Assembly (NCBI GenBank): GCA_017474515.1
Contig: JAFVHN010000068.1
Coordinates: 1 to 47,099, forward strand
Direction of reading: 5' to 3'
Origin: Prevotella sp.
GTDB lineage: Bacteria; Bacteroidota; Bacteroidia; Bacteroidales; Bacteroidaceae
DNA length: 47,099 bases
Of the stretch, positions 1 to 38,760 are shown piece after piece (position 1 is the first letter of the stretch; every line of letters starts with the position of its first letter). A program made the position numbers and the translations under genes. The notes below the pieces were generated by a model that was not told the DNA's origin, did no database searches, and saw only the letters and a program-made list of their open reading frames with translations.

Positions 1-650
1 CCCATATATACGGAATAGGAGCCGTGTGAAAACGTTCTGGAGCTGTAGTTGTTGAAGGTGATGGGATCTGTGCCGTCGCTAAGCGTCACTTTCGACAAGT
101 TGGAACATTCGTAGAAAGGCATGTCGCCCACATAGGTTACCGATGCCGGGATGGTAATCTCGGTAAGCGATGAACCACGGAACATCTCGTACGGCACGGT
201 CTGGGTGCCCTCGGGGATGACGAAGGCCCCACTTATTTTCGAATAGGCGAAGCAGGCATTGCCGAAAGATGTGACGTTGGGACCGGCAGTGAATACTAAC
301 GACCCGGCCTCGGAGCCCACACTATTGAAGGCGTTTACGCCGATGGATGTCACACCGGTGCCGATTTTAAGCGATGCCACTTTCGTACAGCCATTGAACA
401 TGCCGTCGCCAACTTCCGTCACCTTGTTGCCGATGGTCACTGCCGTGGCCTTCGGGAACGGTGAATAGGTATAGTTTTCGCGTTCTACGTTTCGACCCAT
501 ATATACGGAATAGGAGCCGTGTGAAAACGTTCTGGAGCTGTAGTTGTTGAAGGTGATGGGATCTGTGCCGTCGCTAAGCGTCACTTTCGACAAGTTGGAA
601 CATTCGTAGAAAGGCATGTCGCCCACATATGTTACCGATGCCGGGATGGT
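1..650. repeat. Near-identical internal duplication inside the BspA-like gene
   Basis: Bases 1-155 and 496-650 match at 154 of 155 positions (the difference is at 135/630), with an offset of 495 bp (165 codons). The intervening 340 bp are not repeated inside the window. The duplication keeps the reading frame. Because the first copy starts at the window edge, the repeat may continue further to the left. Confidence 0.95.
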
Positions 651-923: not shown

Positions 924-990
924 AATTTTTGTTTTTTAGGTTAATGATATTTTTTTCGGTTTTTAAGCGGGGAATTTCCTTGAGCTTTTT

Positions 991-1090
991 GGGTTTTCCT
1001 AGGTTTTCCTGGGAGGTCCTAGGTTTTCCTAAGATGTCTTAGGGTTTCCTAGGAGGTCCCAGGATTTCCTAAGAGGTCTTAGGGTTTCCT
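991..1090. repeat. 10-bp-period CCTAGG-type array
   Basis: Ten consecutive 10-bp units follow the pattern (A/G)GGTTTTCCT or AGGAGGTCCT, with junctions reading CCTAGG, CCTAAG or CTTAGG. The period is exactly 10 with no slippage. The array lies between the predicted promoter of the BspA-like gene (1115-1122) and its start codon (923), so it would be transcribed as the leader of that mRNA. Related arrays are at 25691-25753 and 34711-34800. Confidence 0.9.
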
Positions 1091-1114
1091 TGGATTTTTA
1101 TATTTTCCAGTTTG

Positions 1115-1122
1115 CAAAATTA
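1115..1122 (-). promoter_or_regulatory. Promoter -7 box for the BspA-like gene
   Basis: TAATTTTG on the minus strand matches the Bacteroidetes -7 consensus TAnnTTTG. Transcription would begin near 1108, giving a leader of about 185 nt that contains the 10-bp array. No clear -33 TTTG was found. Confidence 0.55.
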
Positions 1123-4825: not shown

Positions 4826-4920
4826 GGTGTTTTCCCCTTTCCCGGCATCTCAAAACATGAAAATGTGTATGTCAAAACAAGAAAAACAGGTCCTGCGGGG
4901 GCCTGTTTGATGGTGGGTAG

Positions 4921-5128
4921 TTTTTATGAAAAATCTTGACAAAATCGGCGGTTTTCGGCCGTTTTTGTAAGTGGTTGATAATCAGCTCGTTTAAAAAGGC
5001 AAAAAGTTTGACCGCAAATTTCGGGGAGAGAATTGGCAAATCTCTCCTCTCAAATTGCCAAATCTCTCCCCGAAAATTGCGGTCAAACCTTTTGGCGTTT
5101 GCCGATTTTTATGAAAAATCTTGACAAA
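4921..5128 (+). repeat. 185-bp structured repeat unit, copy A
   Basis: A 23-bp direct repeat (4921-4943 and 5106-5128, containing GAAAAATCTTGACAAA) is spaced at exactly 185 bp. Counting from the G of GAAAAATC (4928), a GTTGATAATCAG motif is at offset 46, the left hairpin arm (GTTTGACCGCAAATTTCG) at offset 78, and the right arm ends at offset 160. The arms (5006-5030 and 5064-5088) pair at 24 of 25 positions, and the loop holds two CAAATCTCTCC-type units. Copies B and C share all of these offsets. It lies 17 bp past the tyrS stop codon. Confidence 0.9.
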
Positions 5129-5145
5129 CCGTGGCCTTTCCGGCC

Positions 5146-6441
5146 TTATTGCACGGTGACAAGATAGTAGTTTTTCTTTCCGCGCTGCACCAGCAGGTAT
5201 TTTCCGCCGAGCAACTGCTCCTCGCCCACCGTGGCGTTGGCGTCGGAGAGTTTCTCCTTGTTGATGCTCAGTGCTCCGCTTTTGCAGAACTCGCGAATTT
5301 CTCGCTTTGAGGGGAACACCGGTGCCACCGTTGTGAACAGCTCAATGGCCGGTTGTCCCAGCTGGTCGCGTCCCACGGTGAATTGTGGCACTCCGTCGAA
5401 GACGTCGAGGAATGTCTGCTCGTCGAGTTTCTCGAGCGACTCCTTGGTGCTCTTTCCGAAGAGTATTCCCGAAGCCTCCACGGCCATGTCGAGCGCCTCG
5501 CGCGAGTGTACCATCACCGTCACCTCCTCGGCCAGTCGGCGCTGCAGTGTGCGGCGCCCGGGGTCGGCCTTGTGCTCTGCCACGAGTGCGTCGATGGTTT
5601 CCTTGTCGAGCGAGGTGAAGATTTTGATGTAGCGCTCGGCGTCGTCGTCGCTCACGTTGAGCCAGAACTGGTAGAACTTGTAGGGCGTGGTGCGCTTAGG
5701 GTCGAGCCAGATGTTTCCGCTCTCGGTCTTTCCGAACTTCTTTCCGTCGCTCTTGGTGATGAGGGGGCAGGTCAGTGCGAAGGTTTCCACGTCGTTGCCC
5801 AGTGTGCGGCGGATGAGCTCGGTGCCGGTGGTCATGTTTCCCCACTGGTCGTTGCCTCCGAGCTGTAGTTTCACGCCCTTGTGCTGGTAGAGGTAGAGGA
5901 AGTCGTAGCCCTGCAGGAGCTGGTAGGTGAACTCGGTGAAGGAGAGTCCGTCGCGTGCCGTGCCGTTGAGCCGCTGCTGCACGCTGTCCTTGGCCATCAT
6001 GTAGTTCACGGTGATGTGCTTGCCCACCTCGCGTGCGAAGTCGAGGAAGGTGAAGTCCTTCATCCAGTCGTAGTTGTTCACCATTTCGGCGGCGTTGGGC
6101 TCCTTGGAGTCAAAGTCGAGGAACTTTGCCACCTGTTGTTTTATGCACTCCTGGTTATGGCGCAGGGTGTCGTCGTTGAGCAGGTTGCGCTCCTGGCTCT
6201 TTCCCGATGGGTCGCCGATCATGCCTGTTGCTCCTCCCACGAGGATGATGGGCTTGTGGCCGCAACGCTGCAGGTGTCGCAGCATCATGATGCCGCAGAG
6301 GTGGCCAATGTGCAGCGAGTCGGCGGTGGGGTCGGTGCCCAAATATGCGGTCACCATTTCTTTTTGCAGTAGTTCTTCTGTGCCCGGCATGATTTGGGCC
6401 AGCATTCCGCGCCAGCGGAGTTCTTCTACGAAGTTCTTCAT
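5146..6441 (-). CDS. tyrS: Tyrosyl-tRNA synthetase
   Basis: The 431-residue protein joins tyrosine to tRNA-Tyr using ATP in the cytoplasm. It is a class I synthetase: the HIGH signature is at residues 44-47 (SLHIGHL), and the KMSKS-equivalent loop is KFGKT at 235-239. [10 protein letters not shown] (about 193-202) is typical of bacterial TyrRS, and the C-terminal part (about 365-431) looks like an S4 RNA-binding domain. The length is normal for the bacterial enzyme. It is the last gene of the minus-strand cluster beginning at metK, 135 bp after yidD. That gap holds a 9-bp inverted repeat (GGCGGTTC/GAACCGCC type) but no clear promoter. Its stop codon is next to 185-bp repeat copy A. Confidence 0.97.
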
Positions 6442-14522: not shown

Positions 14523-14682
14523 CGGCTTTTTGTAAATCCGGACGTGTAAATTTTGTCAGATAACTATCACTTATTGATATTTTTAGACTATTTGGGTTGA
14601 ATTTTATATTTTTTCACACTTTTTCGGGCTCTTTTCCGCCCTTTCATCCTCTTTTTTTAGTGGGTAAGCAGTGGTATAGGAA

Positions 14683-14887
14683 TTTTGAAAAATCTTTACA
14701 AAACGGGCATTTTTTCGGTATTTTTGTAACTCGTTGATAATCAGCGGCCTCAAAATCGCCCGGAGTTTGACCGCAAATTTCTCTCCTCAAACTTCAAGAT
14801 TTCTCTCCTCGATCTTCAAGATCTCTCCCCGAAATTTGCGGTCAAGCTTTTCTATACTTTTATTTTCTTTTGAAAAATCTTTACAAA
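14683..14887 (+). repeat. 185-bp structured repeat unit, copy B
   Basis: The direct repeats TTTTGAAAAATCTTTACAAA (14683-14702 and 14868-14887) are spaced at exactly 185 bp. GTTGATAATCAG is at offset 46 from the G of GAAAAATC (14687), the left arm GTTTGACCGCAAATTTC (14765-14781) at offset 78, and the right arm (14831-14847) ends at offset 160. The loop holds two TCTCTCCTC..CTTCAAGAT units of 20-21 bp. Confidence 0.9.
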
Positions 14888-14931
14888 TTGTTTCCTGGAG
14901 GCCCCTTCCTTCAGCCCCTTTCCGGCAGGGC

Positions 14932-24290: not shown

Positions 24291-24560
24291 TTACAGGGCG
24301 CCTGCCAGATCGGCACTGGCCTTGAACTTGACAACCTTCTTGGCCTCAATCTGAATCTTCTCCTTCGTGGAGGGGTTAATGCCCTCGCGAGCCGGACGCT
24401 CATTCACGCTGAATGTTCCGAAACCGATCAGGGCAACCTTGTCGCCTGCAATCAGGGCTTCCTTCATGGCCTCGGTGGCAGCCTCAAGAGCCTTCTTGGC
24501 GTCAACCTTCGTGATTTGCGCCTTGCCTGCAATCTTGTCAATTAATTCTGTCTTATTCAT
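24291..24560 (-). CDS. hup: HU-family DNA-binding protein
   Basis: The 89-residue protein is a standard-length bacterial HU. It begins MNKTELIDKIAGKAQITKVD, and carries IGFGTFSVNERPAREGINPS, the arm region with the Arg/Pro that inserts into the DNA minor groove. HU bends and compacts DNA and supports recombination and replication. It has a full promoter (24614-24644). Other HU or IHF paralogues may exist outside the window, so the exact symbol is provisional. Confidence 0.95.
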   Translation of the reverse strand: MNKTELIDKIAGKAQITKVDAKKALEAATEAMKEALIAGDKVALIGFGTFSVNERPAREGINPSTKEKIQIEAKKVVKFKASADLAGAL

Positions 24561-24768: not shown

Positions 24769-25686
24769 ATGCGCACCATTCCCCCCGTAACGAAGAACCT
24801 TCTCATCATCAACATACTGATGTATGTGGCCACCGAGGTGCTTGTCCGCACCGGCGTGGACCTTCGCGACATTCTCGGCCTCCATTTCTTCCTGGCCCCC
24901 GATTTCAAGGTCTATCAGTTGATTACCTACATCTTCATGCACGGCGACCTCACGCATATTTTCTTCAACATGTTCGCTTTGTGGATGTTCGGATGCGTCA
25001 TCGAGCGCGTGCTGGGATCAAAGAAATTCCTCATCTACTTCCTTGTATGCGGCATCGGCGCCGGCATCATCCAGGAGGCCGCGCAGTTTGCCAACTACAG
25101 CATTGATAACCTCGCCGCCTATTCCACGGTGAACTACGACGGCGAAGTCATTGCCATGAGCGACTACCTCAACAAGTGGACCACGGTGGGCGCCTCGGGA
25201 GCCATCTACGGCATCCTGCTCGCCTTTGGCATGCTCTTCCCCGAGGAGCGCATTTTCATCTTCCCGCTCCCCATTCCCATCAAGGCCAAGTGGTTCGTGC
25301 TCATCTATGCCGCCATAGAATTGTTCTTCGCCCTCAACCAGACGGGCGACGGCGTGGCCCATGTGGCCCACCTCGGAGGCATGTTCTTCGGATTCCTCCT
25401 CATTCGCTACTGGCAGCACCATCCCGGCAGCGCCGGCTTCGGCACCGGTGGCGGCCGACAGTTCTTCGACAACATGCGCTCCAGCTGGGAGAAGCGCTCG
25501 CACAAGCCGGCCGGCCCCTCCCGTCCCGCCGACCCCACGCCTCAGGAAACCGACTGGGAATACAACGCCCGCAAGAAGGCCGAGCAAGACGAGATAGACC
25601 GCCTTCTCGACAAAATCCGCATGAGCGGCTACGACAGCCTCACCGACCAGGAGAAGCGCCGCCTCTTTGAAAGCGGAAAAGATTAA
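24769..25686 (+). CDS. Rhomboid-family intramembrane serine protease
   Basis: The 305-residue membrane protein has about six hydrophobic segments. The catalytic pair is clear: Ser143 in VGASGAIYG and His201 in VAHVAHLGG. The HGDLTHIFFNMFAL segment (58-71) supplies the conserved His and Asn of the oxyanion region. Rhomboids cut transmembrane segments of other proteins; the substrate is unknown. A soluble, charged C-terminal tail follows (about 220-305). It is upstream of an EEP-family gene, 96 bp away, a pairing I recall from other Bacteroidetes; the two are probably co-transcribed. Confidence 0.93.
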   Translation: MRTIPPVTKNLLIINILMYVATEVLVRTGVDLRDILGLHFFLAPDFKVYQLITYIFMHGDLTHIFFNMFALWMFGCVIERVLGSKKFLIYFLVCGIGAGIIQEAAQFANYSIDNLAAYSTVNYDGEVIAMSDYLNKWTTVGASGAIYGILLAFGMLFPEERIFIFPLPIPIKAKWFVLIYAAIELFFALNQTGDGVAHVAHLGGMFFGFLLIRYWQHHPGSAGFGTGGGRQFFDNMRSSWEKRSHKPAGPSRPADPTPQETDWEYNARKKAEQDEIDRLLDKIRMSGYDSLTDQEKRRLFESGKD

Positions 25687-25690
25687 ACCC

Positions 25691-25753
25691 TTAAGAAGCC
25701 CTAGGAAATCCTAGGAAAACCTAGGAAAACCTAGGCCCTCCTAGGAAAACCTA
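25691..25753. repeat. 10-bp-period CCTAGG-type array between rhomboid and EEP genes
   Basis: Six units such as CTAGGAAAAC follow each other with an exact period of 10. It lies in the 96-bp gap between two co-directional genes, so it would be transcribed. Read on the other strand it has the same GGTTTTCCTA form as the array at 991-1090. Confidence 0.9.
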
Positions 25754-26871: not shown

Positions 26872-26937
26872 CCCCCTATACCTAATTATATTATATAAGA
26901 GACCGCTATCAGGTGGATAACAACATAGGTGAAAATT

Positions 26938-27141
26938 GGTAAAAAATCTTGACAATTTTGCCGATTTTTCACCCGTTTTGTAACTTGTTGAAAATTAGCG
27001 ACTTGCAAATCACCCCAGGTTTGACCGCAAATTTCGCACCTCAAACTGCCAAATCTCTCCCCTCAAACTGCCAAATCTCTCCCCGAAATTTGCGGTCAAA
27101 CCTTCCCGGGTACATGAAATTTTATGAAAAATTTTGACAAA
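26938..27141 (+). repeat. 185-bp structured repeat unit, copy C
   Basis: The direct repeats (AAAAAATCTTGACAAT at 26941 and GAAAAATTTTGACAAA at 27126) are again 185 bp apart. A GTTGAAAATTAG motif is at offset 46. The hairpin arms are perfect over 20 bp (AGGTTTGACCGCAAATTTCG, 27017-27036, against 27084-27103) and start and end at the same offsets as in A and B. The loop is an exact 22-bp tandem repeat (27039-27060, 27061-27082). Confidence 0.9.
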
Positions 27142-27175
27142 ACTCCGCGTCAGGACTGCATTAGGAGCCGACGCA

Positions 27176-27473
27176 TCCCGTTCTGCCGAATTTGCAATTC
27201 GGCAGCATTGAGTATAAGCATTTGAAATGCGAGACAACGTTTTCTCGGATTACAAATCCTGATACTCGCTCCAGTCGAATTGCAAATTCGCCTGAACAGA
27301 GGTAGGACTGCATTAGGGCCGACGCGTTAGGAGCCGACGCCTCCCGTTCTGCCGAATTTGCAATTCGGCAGCATTGAGTATAAGCATTTGAAATGCGAGA
27401 CGACGTTTTCTCGGATTACAAATCCTGATACTCGCTCCAGTCGAATTGCAAATTCGCCTGAACAGAGGTAGGA
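27176..27473. repeat. Tandem pair of 132-bp composite palindromes
   Basis: Bases 27176-27307 and 27342-27473 are identical at 131 of 132 positions, with an offset of 166 bp. Each unit contains CTGCCGAATTTGCAATTCGG, GAGTATAAGCATTTGAAATG, then GGATTACAAATCCTGATACT and CGAATTGCAAATTCG, so the whole unit is a large imperfect palindrome. Between them are fragments of the GAGCCGACGC family. Confidence 0.93.
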
Positions 27474-27480
27474 ACCGACA

Positions 27481-27583
27481 CTATAGGAGCCGACGCTATA
27501 GGAGCCGACGCTATAGGAGCCGACGCTTCCAAGCGTCGGAGTAAATAAAAATCAAAAGTTAGTCCGACGCTTGGAAGCGTCGG
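27481..27583. repeat. 15-bp tandem repeat plus two GACGCTT palindromes
   Basis: CTATAGGAGCCGACG occurs three times in a row (27481-27525) and runs into the palindromes 27520-27539 and 27564-27583, each of the form CCGACGCTT-NN-AAGCGTCGG. The family is the same as at 2478-2835. Confidence 0.9.
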
Positions 27584-27712
27584 CTCCTATCGCGGCTCCT
27601 TTCTACGTTCTGTTGAATTTGCGAATACCGCTGAACACCCCCCATCTCCCCCCTCTTTTTAAAAAAAATGCACTTTTCTTGCCCGAAATTTTATAATATG
27701 TGGAAAAATGTG

Positions 27713-31116: not shown

Positions 31117-31215
31117 GAATATAAGGATTTGTAATCCGAAACAAGCATTACACATTTATTTCGCATTGCAAATGCTGATACTCAATTCTGCCGAATTGCA
31201 AATTCGGCAGAACGG
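31117..31215. repeat. Composite palindrome, single copy
   Basis: This carries the same modules as 27176-27473: ATATAAGGATTTGTAATCC, CGCATTGCAAATGCTGATAC, and CTGCCGAATTGCAAATTCGG. The first arm is shortened. Confidence 0.85.
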
Positions 31216-31385
31216 GAAAATAATTAAAAATATATTAGAATAATTCGTTTCAAAATAAAAGACTCTTCGCTTCAAAATAAAAGACTCTTCGTTTCAAAAA
31301 CCCTCCCTTTAACCCCGTTTTTCTTTCAAAAAGTTTCAAAAACTTTAAAAAATCTCCCTTTTTCTTGCATTTTGTCGCTTTTTTC

Positions 31386-34659: not shown

Positions 34660-34710
34660 GAAAAGTGAAAAAGTGATAAGTGAAAAGTGAAAAATTGAAA
34701 AGGCGAAAAT

Positions 34711-34800
34711 CCTAGGGTTTCCTAGGAGGTCCTAAGAGTTCCTAGGGCTTCCTAGGAGTTCCTAGGTTTTCCTAAGAGTTTTAGGGCTTTCTTTGGGCTT
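34711..34800. repeat. 10-bp-period CCTAGG-type array between pectate lyase and xerD
   Basis: Nine units such as CCTAGGGTTT, CCTAGGAGGT and CCTAAGAGTT keep an exact period of 10. The last two units overlap the 3' end of the pectate lyase gene (stop codon at 34781-34783), so the array supplies its final codons. Confidence 0.9.
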
Positions 34801-37800
34801 TTTTCTCTATTGTTACGGTGCCGTCGGCGTGGGTTTTGCGGATGATGAGGAGGCCCGGGGCCGATGGGGCGGTGCGCGAGCCGTTAATGGTGAACTGCTC
34901 GGTGCGCACCACGTCGCTTGCCGACCGGTGGTTGACGATGCCGGTGGCCGAAGCCACGATGAGGCGGCCCGTGGTGGCCAGTTGCGAGGTGTCCCAGCAA
35001 AGGCCGTCGGCCGGTTCCGCCGGAACGATGGCGTCGAAGTTCCCGCTGATGGCCTGCGCGTTGAGGATGTTATAGCTATCGCCCTCCGCCGGTGTGCCGT
35101 TGAGCATGATGATGCGCAGCGTGCCGTTGGCGGTGAGCGTTCCCTGGCAAGCCAGTTTGTCGCTTTCTTTCGTGTTGGCATCAACCTCCATGGCCAGCGT
35201 AGCGCCTTGTTTCAGGTTCACGCTGTTTCCCACGGTGAACGTTCCAAGGCCATTGTCGCCCGGTGAGAGCGTTGCGCCGCTTTCCACGATGACGGGAGCC
35301 AGTGTCGAGCCCGTTCCCGCCAGCGTTGCCCCTTCGGCCACGGTGTATGCCCCCGGCGTGAAGTAAGTTCCGGTGTGGTCCTTGTCCTTTTGGTGAACGC
35401 CGTTTTGCGTCAGTGTTCCACCGCTGATGAGCGTTGTTCCGCGGTATTTCTGGGCTCCGGTGAGCGTCCAGTTTCCGTCGCCCTCCTTCACCAGGCTGGT
35501 GGTTCCTATGCGGCTGGTGTGCTCAATGCCGTTGGTGATTTTCCCGTTGAAGGTCTCGTCGGTGCCGAGTGCCCCGACGTGCCATGTCACCTTTCCCCCG
35601 TCTTTCTTTACGAAGCAGCAGGCCAGCGTTGCCTGGCCGTCGCCCGCAAGTGCTCCGATGTGATATTCCTTGCTATTGGAGCCCGCGCGCATCTCGAAGG
35701 CCCCATCGAGCACGAGCCTGCCGTTGGGAATGCCCCCGTAGGTGGCGTTGTCGATGTAGAATTGCGTGCCGTCGGAGGCTTTTTTCTTTGCCGTCACCGT
35801 TCCGAAGAAGTTGCTCCAGTCGCCTTGGAAGAACTCCCTCACAAATTCTATCTCCACGGTGAGGTTTCCCGTTCCGCTGACGCTGTTTTTCACGTTTGTC
35901 CGTTTTCCGATGTCGAGGAAACTTTCTTTGTCGCCCCTCACCACGATGGGGAAGTTGAGGTATCCCTCGGCCTCGCTGTCGCCGCCCGTGGTGCGGAATC
36001 GTCCGCCCTCCAGTATGAGCGTTCCGTTAATGGCGGGCATGTTTCCCAAGAGGTCTTTTCCGCGAAGCTCATAGGTGCCGCCCCTTACGATGGTGTTTCC
36101 CGTGTATGAGTGTAGCCCGTATGCCTGCGACAAGGTGCCTTCGCCGTCCTTCACCAGCGTTCCTTCGCCGCTCACCTGTCCGGTCAGCGTGAGCGTTGCC
36201 GCCGGGTTGCTGACGTTGACGGTGGTGGTTCCCTGCAGTGCCGCCTCGCGGTTGGTCGATGCCGACGGGCCGGTATAGTTGACCGTTCCGCCGTTCCAAA
36301 TCCAGGTTTGCGCCGTTCCTATCGACGACGGCATTCCTCCGTTGGCGATTTTCCCGATGTTCAGCGTGCCGTTCCAAAGCACCGTTCCGCCGGCGTAGGT
36401 GTTGTTGTCGTCGAGTTGCAATGTTCCCTCTCCGGCCATGTTCACCGAGCCCTGTCCTGCTATGACGCCGTTGAAGTGGTAGTCGGCGTTGCCTTTCACC
36501 ATGATTGCCTCCGGGCTCACTTCCTCGGGTATGATGATGTCGCCCGTCTGGCCGTTTCCGTCGAAGAGCACTCGGCTATTGTCGTGGTAGTTGCCTTCTT
36601 TCCAGTTGGCGTCGGTGGTGTTCCACAGGTTCGACGTTGCCCCCGTCCACGTCAGGTCGGGCATGTATGAGTCGGGGTCGATGGCGTCCACCATGGGGGC
36701 CTTTGTCTTTGCCGTGAGCTGGTTGCTGTATTCCGAGTAGGTGTCGCCGTAGAAAGCCCTCACGCGGAACGAGTATTGCGTGCTTGGCGTCAGGTTGACC
36801 ACGGTGAATTGGTCGTCGGCTCGCGGCAGCAACGTGCGGCCTATTTCCTGCCAGTTGCCGTCGATGAGCTGTTCTATGGCGTAGCCCTCCTCGTGGTCGG
36901 TGAAGTCGCGCCAGCGCAGGGTGATGGTTTCCTGGGTGCTCTCGATGGCCTTCAGGGCCATGGGCGTTTTCAGGAAATATTGCGACTGCTCTTTCCCAAT
37001 GCTATTGATGTAGTGCTCGATGTTGGCATATCCATCGTCGGCTATTGTCATGGCGTCGTCGGCCTGCGGGTTGGTACCGTTCTGCTGTTCCCACCAGTCG
37101 GGCATGCCGTCGCCGTCGCTATCGGTGCGGTTGTCGTCGGAACCTGGCCACAGGTTCCATGTGGTGGGTGCTCCGATGTCGAGGTCAGCCTCGTTGCTGA
37201 TGATTTCTCCCTCGTTGCCCAGCGATTTCAGGTCGCTGATGAGCATCCAGTCCAGTGGGTCGCGGTAGGGCAGCGATGCGCCCACGTTGTCCTTCAGCTG
37301 GTCCAGCACGGCGATGGCCCCGATGGTTGGCAGCTCGGGATAGTCGTAAGGCTGTTCTTGGAAGGTGGGCCCTCCGCCGAACTCGTCGCGGCTGATAGCC
37401 CTGGGGTTGAAGACGCCGTTGTGGTCGCCGTCGAGCATGTTGTCGTGGGCGTAGATGTTATATCGTGCGTTGGCCCCGCTGAAGGCGTTTTGCTTTCCCG
37501 TGGGCCCGGTGATGAAGAGGTTTCCCACGGCGTTGGCGTAGGATGTTCCCTCCGAGTCGCCGCCCATGATGTATGCCGCCGTTTTCCAGTTATACACGAT
37601 GTTGTTGACATACTGGTGGCGGCCCTTGAACTTGGGGTTTCGCGTGTCGTTGTGTATGTAAAGTGTCCGGAAGATGGTGACGCGGTTGTCGGTCTGTATG
37701 AGTCCGCCTGCCGAGTGCCCCATCAGTCCCTGTCCTATGATGCAGTTCTGCACGGTGATGTCCTGCGGGTTGCTTCCGCTGATGGAGAACACCTCGTCGC

Positions 37801-38361: not shown

Positions 38362-38452
38362 TTGCGGGGGAAAATAATTAAGTGAAGAGTGAAAAGTGAA
38401 GAGTGAAGAATTATAAAGTGAAGAGTGAAGAGTGAAGAATTTGCTGCCGCCA

Positions 38453-38737
38453 CCTGTTCCGGCGAATTTGCAATTCGCCGGACGTGAGTATAAGAATTTT
38501 TAATTCGCAAAAGTGCATTCCGTGTGACTTTCCCCTTTTTTCGCATTACAAATGCTTATACTCAGAACTGCCGAATTCGGAAATTCGGCAGAACCTGTTC
38601 CGGCGAATTTGCAATTCGCCGGACGTGAGTATAAGAATTTTTAAATTCGCAAAAAATGCATTCCGTGTGGCTTTTCCCTTTTTTCGCATTACAAATGCTT
38701 ATACTCAGAACTGCCGAATTCGGAAATTCGGCAGAAC
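38453..38737. repeat. Tandem pair of about 141-bp composite palindromes
   Basis: Units 38453-38593 and 38594-38737 are nearly identical, differing by small A and T insertions or deletions. Each has CGGCGAATTTGCAATTCGCC, GTGAGTATAAGAATTTTTAA, then CGCATTACAAATGCTTATAC and CTGCCGAATTCGGAAATTCG. The layout matches 27176-27473 and 31117-31215, but the letters differ in parts. Confidence 0.92.
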
Positions 38738-38760
38738 CGAGAGAAAAACGGTAAGTCCTG

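Follow-up and report, generated by a model that had tools for sequence, protein, structure and literature searches.

A high-copy, evenly spaced intergenic element with an IHF-like dyad and a long hairpin in a Prevotella genome

What kind of element recurs between the genes of a Prevotella genome (GTDB Prevotella; labelled G000 in the comparisons) as diverged copies of constant length with a conserved hairpin? The question was raised by three copies in the stretch of 47,099 nt analyzed here, which is called the window as a whole. These three are a small sample, and the family in the same genome is far larger. Among the readings weighed below, we tentatively favour a chromosome-structuring protein-binding site above a mobile element with target immunity.

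Layout of the element and tests of its hairpin

The element is non-coding and about 230 bases long. It consists, in this order, of a direct repeat, an IHF-like dyad of about 33 bp, a hairpin of about 36 bp with a stem of up to 36 base pairs, and a second direct repeat (Table 1). The three window copies were confirmed at the positions reported in the first-pass annotation, between which they align without any gap, and their terminal repeat returns after exactly 185 bp (4921/5106, 14680/14865 and 26935/27120). Two details had to be corrected. The dyad, taken there as uniform, reads GTTGAAAATTAG in copy 3 instead of GTTGATAATCAG, and the start of the element lies further left. Matches to R1, a sequence model of 233 positions built from an alignment of 32 copies (A2), add about 12-30 bases leftward to each window copy and reach a GGTGGATAG-like box. 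With up to two mismatches, the hairpin arm TTTGACCGCAAATTT is found six times in the window, all within the three copies, while 100 shuffles gave 0.25 occurrences on average.

Table 1. Positions of the three element copies, their parts and one candidate binding-protein gene in the window
Feature	Position	Strand	Remark
Copy 1, whole model match	4909..5130	+	R1 match 185.3 bits, E 1.2e-54
Copy 1, left box GGTGGGTAG	4912..4920	+	left end conserved in 88-copy alignment
Copy 1, left terminal direct repeat TGAAAAATCTTGACAAAA	4927..4944	+	
Copy 1, IHF-like dyad, TTTGTAAN5TGATAATCA...	4964..4996	+	core pattern 4964-4985
Copy 1, hairpin left arm	5006..5041	+	
Copy 1, hairpin right arm	5053..5088	+	
Copy 1, right terminal direct repeat	5112..5129	+	185 bp past the left one
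Copy 2, whole model match	14658..14889	+	R1 match 156.3 bits
Copy 2, left direct repeat TGAAAAATCTTTACAAAA	14686..14703	+	
Copy 2, dyad	14723..14755	+	core pattern 14723-14744
Copy 2, hairpin left arm	14765..14800	+	
Copy 2, hairpin right arm	14812..14847	+	
Copy 2, right direct repeat	14871..14888	+	
Copy 3, whole model match	26909..27143	+	R1 match 180.4 bits
Copy 3, left direct repeat	26940..26957	+	
Copy 3, dyad, TGAAAATTA variant	26977..27009	+	
Copy 3, hairpin left arm	27019..27054	+	
Copy 3, hairpin right arm	27066..27101	+	
Copy 3, right direct repeat	27125..27142	+	
HU/IHF-family protein gene, one candidate for dyad binding	24300..24560	-	PF00216 E 2.3e-31

The hairpins are strong, with RNA folding z-scores of -9.42, -5.90 and -5.85 for copies 1, 2 and 3. 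They would suit a structured RNA, an RNA-processing hairpin similar to NEMIS of Neisseria, for which such a role has been proposed, or a two-way transcription terminator; we consider this reading improbable. In A2, 85.0% of the stem cells are paired, compared to 82.2% after shuffling and at most 54.1% after sliding. Two-sided changes, which also speak for an RNA, occupy 56 stem cells vs 36.4 in shuffled alignments; none of 500 shuffles was as high, and the best slide gave 23. However, the number of stem pairs with two-sided changes (13 vs 11.8) is not beyond chance. Five pairs covary at p <= 0.01 among 88 copies, one outer and four inner, and the four inner ones track two loop subtypes. Compensatory changes in the arms, as looked for on the suggestion of the first-pass annotation, are thus present as an excess of changed cells but not in the number of pairs, and the clear covariation is mostly subtype-linked. 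The hairpin structure is thus kept, mainly by conservation of its sequence. Palindrome self-correction by template switching could likewise yield matched stem changes.

A match to a known Rfam family had been named beforehand as evidence against a novel element. At the gathering threshold, no Rfam family matched over the element in the window and 12 loci, where the only matches, to tRNAs and a single SAM riboswitch, lay away from the elements; the window alone gave one tRNA and nothing else. Weak matches of eukaryotic hairpin families over copy 1 fall well under their thresholds and were rejected. This result, like the DNA spacing described below, which an RNA or terminator leaves unexplained, weighs against the RNA reading, and no known Rfam RNA is supported.

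Copy number, completeness and placement in the genome

The genome carries at least 150 copies, a lower bound because all 150 of the 1,743 candidates that were scored in the R1 search matched (weakest E 1.1e-42). At E <= 0.1, 56 matches lie in eight complete contigs (804 of 3,511 kb), namely the window together with seven others from among the larger contigs, already known to hold copies. Scaling to the whole genome gives about 245 copies, perhaps an overestimate because these contigs were preselected as copy-bearing. As many as 55 of the 56 matches span at least 191 of the 233 model positions, and the remaining one, of 27 positions, is truncated by a contig end; besides it, no fragments of the element were found in the 804 kb. 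The terminal repeat (up to two mismatches) and the hairpin arm occur 74 and 94 times inside elements in this sequence and never outside, where inside denotes a model match extended by 40 and 15 bases of flank. The exact dyad core is found 16 times inside and never outside, and with one mismatch 31 times inside and twice outside.

We aligned 88 copies, after three of 91 were dropped for short flanks. Their pairwise identity is 0.687 on average and 0.871 at most, with a median of 0.79 to the nearest neighbour. At this mean divergence of about 31%, gap columns are absent from 66 of the 88; only columns occupied in at least 70% of the copies were considered, which leaves insertions uncounted. The stretch between the left ACAAA and the right end measures 190 or 191 bases in 71 of the 76 measurable copies (of 91). 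More than 1.5 bits of information are held by 85 positions, and 79 low-information columns average just 0.41-0.44 identity. Constant length and kept pairing, on which the first-pass annotation had staked its suggestion of selection on structure, both held in the larger set of copies, where length is nearly constant; spacing and structure support that suggestion, and the support from covariation is mixed.

None of the 91 copies lies in a predicted gene, nor does any of the 56 midpoints among 525 genes predicted in the eight contigs by a simple hexamer method made for this analysis. Elements occur in all orientations to flanking genes. Compared to the expectation from gap length, 82 elements are distributed as 31 vs 23.6 between divergent, 33 vs 41.9 between tandem and 18 vs 16.5 between convergent genes. 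A terminator was rejected and is not supported, as a preference for convergent pairs is absent; this and the variety of orientations also count against the RNA reading at large. The orientation shared by the three window copies is real, but does not extend to the family, which has 28 plus and 28 minus copies in the eight contigs. Neighbours lie on the same strand in 23 of 48 pairs. A replication-strand bias was rejected, with the strand agreeing with GC skew in 29 of 56 elements.

The copies are kept apart from each other, which is a new observation. The 48 neighbour distances in the eight complete contigs have a minimum of 4,867 bp and a median of 11.6 kb, with the largest gaps up to 33.7 kb. 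No pair is closer than 4.5 kb, where 11.1-12.2 are expected from random placement within intergenic gaps, and none of the 3,000 simulations run in either way gave zero. The coefficient of variation of the spacing is 0.57 vs 0.85-0.91 (P 0.0003-0.0007), and four further gap choices gave 10.8-12.3 expected pairs below 4.5 kb. A set of 41 sources, which overlaps with the former and is not independent of it, has a minimum of 4,532 in 50 distances. Among the control repeats, the one other with many loci (48) is not depleted of close pairs (13 below 4.5 kb vs 8.3 expected). Three controls with 11-13 loci gave 1 vs 0.5, 0 vs 0.7 and 3 vs 1.0, and two more had too few. Recombination is unlikely to have removed close pairs, since such pairs are missing in both relative orientations.

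The same spacing could be produced by target immunity, which is described in PMC3562280. The element would then be mobile but non-autonomous, with a putative transposase or recombinase acting on it in trans and insertion barred within about 5 kb of an existing copy, as in Mu, Tn7 or Tn3 near their ends, a reading we regard as possible rather than probable. The copies fit it by lying at scattered unrelated sites on random strands, with placement near to gap length. However, near-identical copies are absent, no terminal inverted repeats are seen in the 32- and 88-copy alignments, and a search for Y1 transposases only did not find a mobilising gene. Target site duplication gave no signal either: in 19,440 offset and length tests on 76 copies, the top z of 5.1 corresponds to 3/76 vs 0.18, with no offset prominent. 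Moreover, decay after mobile insertion should leave fragments and solo repeats or arms, of which the 804 kb hold none except at a contig end. Intergenic copies that are almost always complete and well separated resemble chromosome architecture more than transposon remains. Immunity-guided insertion accounts for the spacing and not for this absence of decay.

Two of these results, on the repeat ends and on target duplication, concern defining features of an ordinary MITE and contradict such an origin from an insertion sequence. The element fits a MITE in size, copy number and intergenic location, and the 155-bp Correia MITE is described with an IHF site as well (PMC2229807). But its terminal repeats are direct instead of inverted in both alignments and the duplication signal is absent, which makes this origin very improbable and not supported, with the search for a parent covering Y1 transposases alone. 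Least probable among the readings considered is a REP or BIME element of a RAYT (Y1) transposase. The element is palindromic, intergenic and high-copy, and the genome has one Y1 transposase. Yet that gene is flanked by a GTAG-type palindrome of its own (GTAGGGACATAC...) without any element copy in the 3.3-kb locus, and a consistent GTAG or CGTC tag is absent from the element by eye. With another palindrome as the cognate repeat beside the RAYT gene, this reading is contradicted and not supported.

The dyad and related families in other genomes

Judged from sequence, the dyad is the widely conserved part of the element, which the first-pass annotation could not see, any more than the spacing along the chromosome or the families of other species. 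Its core, TTTGYAAN5TGATWATCAR, is composed of two halves, each like the IHF consensus. The exact core occurs in 41 of 80 same-genus genomes including the own one, where the reversed control has no hits in any, and in 27 of the 119 genomes at order level, again including the own one, with one control hit. With up to two mismatches, all 12 chosen same-genus genomes exceed the control, ranging from 161 vs 3 (G100) to 21 vs 5 (G285). The reverse half-site YAAN4YTGANW is found in 84 of the 88 aligned copies, compared to 0.9% of shuffles. The IHF consensus WATCAANNNNTTR matches 84/88 copies in relaxed reverse and 63/88 in relaxed forward form. The low number of strict matches, 25/88 (reverse) and 15/88 (forward), counts against a chromosome-structuring role. 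IHF interacts with RIB elements.

In 90 exact hits outside the own genome, complementarity of the dyad spacer bases is no higher than expected, so that the dyad probably acts there like a protein site; this also argues against an RNA or terminator. Within G000, 77 of the 88 copies have a dyad segment that folds better than its shuffled versions, and a structural role is therefore possible, though the palindromic consensus alone may account for the folding. The genome has four HU/IHF-family matches, one of them in the window (Table 1), and such a protein would be one conceivable candidate for binding the dyad.

The palindromes beside dyads vary from species to species. We scored them by 7-mer multiplicity, a measure picked after counts of perfect palindromes (at least three beside 5/68 dyads vs 1/62 controls, at least two beside 27 vs 4) proved too strict at the threshold of three. 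A 7-mer recurring at least four times within 140 bp was found beside 26 of 68 genus dyads vs one of 62 controls 400 bp away, and at least three times beside 44 of 68 vs 5 of 62. The genome G057 has nine copies with another terminal repeat (TGTAAANAAATTTCGCAAT-like) at each end, with a period of 175-177 found automatically in six and by eye in three, for which the program had taken the wrong site. A scan of 383 kb of G057 gave 14 places, with terminal repeats 175-177 bp apart in 10 and a match of the array only in three. A model of this family matched at least 77 distinct places in G057 among the matches listed, 37 in G000, 23 in G289 and 2 in G105, and none in G101, G310, G117, G131 and G082. 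G289 is the nearest sampled relative (86% in tyrS) and has an array of its own, with the dyad recognisable in about two of nine loci. No terminal repeats could be made out by eye in G055 and G003, and they are thus not genus-wide.

Spacing is weaker in G057, with 2 of 49 pairs below 4.5 kb among the matches listed vs 9.8 expected (exponential); in the 383 kb it is 0 of 12, with few pairs and three of 14 places matching the array only. No gap with both flanks matched between G057 and G000 was found among 24 G057 entries, some of them duplicated. For seven of the 13 genes beside G057 elements, the orthologue also adjoins an element in G000 (5/8 from contigs, base 0.21, p 0.013; 2/5 from stretches, base 0.32, p 0.52). 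An earlier form of the test gave 4/5 vs 10/44 (p 0.019), and these tests are small, overlapping and confounded by gap size. At one place (L422, G057:C61:4498), the best matches of the two flanking genes adjoin different G000 elements (C84, C105), as though rearrangement breakpoints coincided with elements.

The family of G000 itself is narrowly distributed. BLAST-level matches come from the own genome alone among 40 genomes, and R1 at E <= 1e-4 matched 16 of 150 same-genus genomes including the own one, the others weakly (best 1.2e-7). It was not found in 54 tyrS loci of relatives, which are, where named, mostly rumen Prevotella assemblies, P. ruminicola among them. The lack of matches in the 39 other genomes at BLAST level and in these loci is in line with mobility. 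Plasmids, phages (queried with one copy, L031) and viral contigs (one exact 21-mer) gave no matches, and neither did the exact gapped pattern in a collection of genome contigs.

Several loci were noted by reading. In 14 of 17 relatives, tyrS is followed by an apparent glutamine tRNA, where the own genome has an element (window 5128-5146). Three near-alike dyad elements lie upstream of an apparent HU-type protein gene in G003 (L065, L078, L173), and the dyad lies upstream of apparently one same gene, mtaB, in four genomes (L089, L091, L101, L105). In other families of the order, G184 has dyads within repeated units of about 157-235 bp carrying GAAATGACCTTTTTGGACCGC (L164-L166), and G178 has a few-hundred-base repeat with the dyad inside and inverted ends AACCCATYTTGCAGC by eye, located at many contig ends (L160-L163).

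A possible role in chromosome structure and relation to published elements

Four features argue for selection acting on single copies: they are nearly complete, their parts keep a fixed spacing, the rest of the element has diverged strongly, and they are evenly placed. In the chromosome-structuring reading, selection would keep one site roughly every 5-34 kb along the chromosome. The two direct repeats about 185 bp apart, the IHF-like dyad near one end and the hairpin between them would position proteins on bent, cruciform-capable, intergenic DNA. The resulting nucleoprotein complex may act as a boundary within the folded, supercoiled chromosome or as an anchor for it, a role proposed for E. 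coli BIMEs. The dyad is common to several Prevotella species, and the palindromes of each, and in G057 the terminal repeat, would presumably fit a fast-changing partner protein. Against this role count, besides the few strict IHF matches, the large gaps, the conservation of the hairpin in sequence as well as structure within the genome, and the non-independence of copies, 38 of 88 having a neighbour above 0.80 identity. The dyad-bearing repeat of G178, with its inverted ends and frequent location at contig ends, speaks for mobility instead.

A broader form of the chromosome-structuring reading would have dedicated, selected boundary elements subdivide Prevotella chromosomes. Complete nucleoprotein units of about 185 bp, at least about 5 kb apart, would share their dyad across the genus, and each species would have repeats and palindromes of its own that co-evolve with a partner protein; some units would adjoin the same genes across species despite differing element sequences. 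Taken together, these claims seem possible to us, though less likely than not. Complete, regularly spaced and strongly conserved intergenic units would be an unusual legacy for mobile repeats. If they shape the chromosome, Prevotella would own dedicated boundary elements, and a determinant of supercoil domains of about 10 kb, a size described in PMC3420936, would become testable through single-site deletion.

The first-pass annotation knew of no named element with such a layout. PINSR of P. intermedia comes close in size, copy number and kind of location, a 188-bp imperfect intergenic repeat described in 2015 with 177 and 184 copies in two strains, lineage-specific within the P. intermedia/nigrescens group, without terminal inverted repeats and published without function (PMC4755523). 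The element is likewise high-copy, intergenic and without terminal inverted repeats, and nearly equal in size and copy number. By size, number and place it is probably of the PINSR kind, compared by description and not by sequence; the section describing PINSR reports no dyad, hairpin, terminal direct repeats or spacing. The widely shared dyad, species-specific arrays and spacing were not found in the open-access literature, and the dyad may offer a handle on PINSR.

E. coli BIME or RIP-RIB elements (REP palindromes plus an IHF site) are likewise intergenic palindromes and proposed supercoil-domain barriers; a BIME is described as impeding supercoil diffusion, and about 600 BIMEs may delimit domains (PMC6907758). 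In contrast, the Prevotella element has no RAYT-type REP hairpin, and has a fixed unit of about 185 bp, terminal direct repeats and regular spacing. The Correia/NEMIS elements of Neisseria are also small and stem-loop forming, the 155-bp form having an IHF site and an almost exclusively intergenic location (PMC2229807), but Correia elements end in inverted repeats of 24 bp and show target duplication, two features that were not found here. The BrickBuilt MITE of Porphyromonas gingivalis, also in Bacteroidales, is similarly intergenic and species-restricted with a repeat array within conserved flanks, but has 19 copies of variable length (84-991 nt), terminal inverted repeats and duplications in three of four intact copies (PMC4596501).

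Other repeats were seen near the element or in the window. The single Y1 (RAYT-like) transposase of G000 (C24:23184-23495, L326) lies between GTAGGGACATACTTTATGTATGTCC palindromes, a REP/RAYT-like pair in Prevotella; a palindrome similar to the flanking one has 12 loci in the 804 kb, and at five of these an element lies within 400 bp. CGCTTCGCTAAATGATAAATGA-like tails follow soon past the right end of several G000 copies (e.g. L126, L135, L154), and of 13 such loci in the 804 kb, nine have an element no more than 400 bp away. The contig starts with a 164-bp direct repeat, 98% identical (window 1-164 and 496-659). Tandem 10-bp repeats of the CCTAGGTTTT type are located at window 967-1119, 25682-25751 and 34700-34812, and clusters of the CGACGCTTCCAAGCGTCG palindrome with TAGGAGC spacers at 2479-2800 and 27476-27600. 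A dispersed palindromic family around AATTTGCAATTCGGC, with tandem duplication at 166 and about 141-143 bp, occupies 27158-27473, 31156-31217 and 38452-38738.
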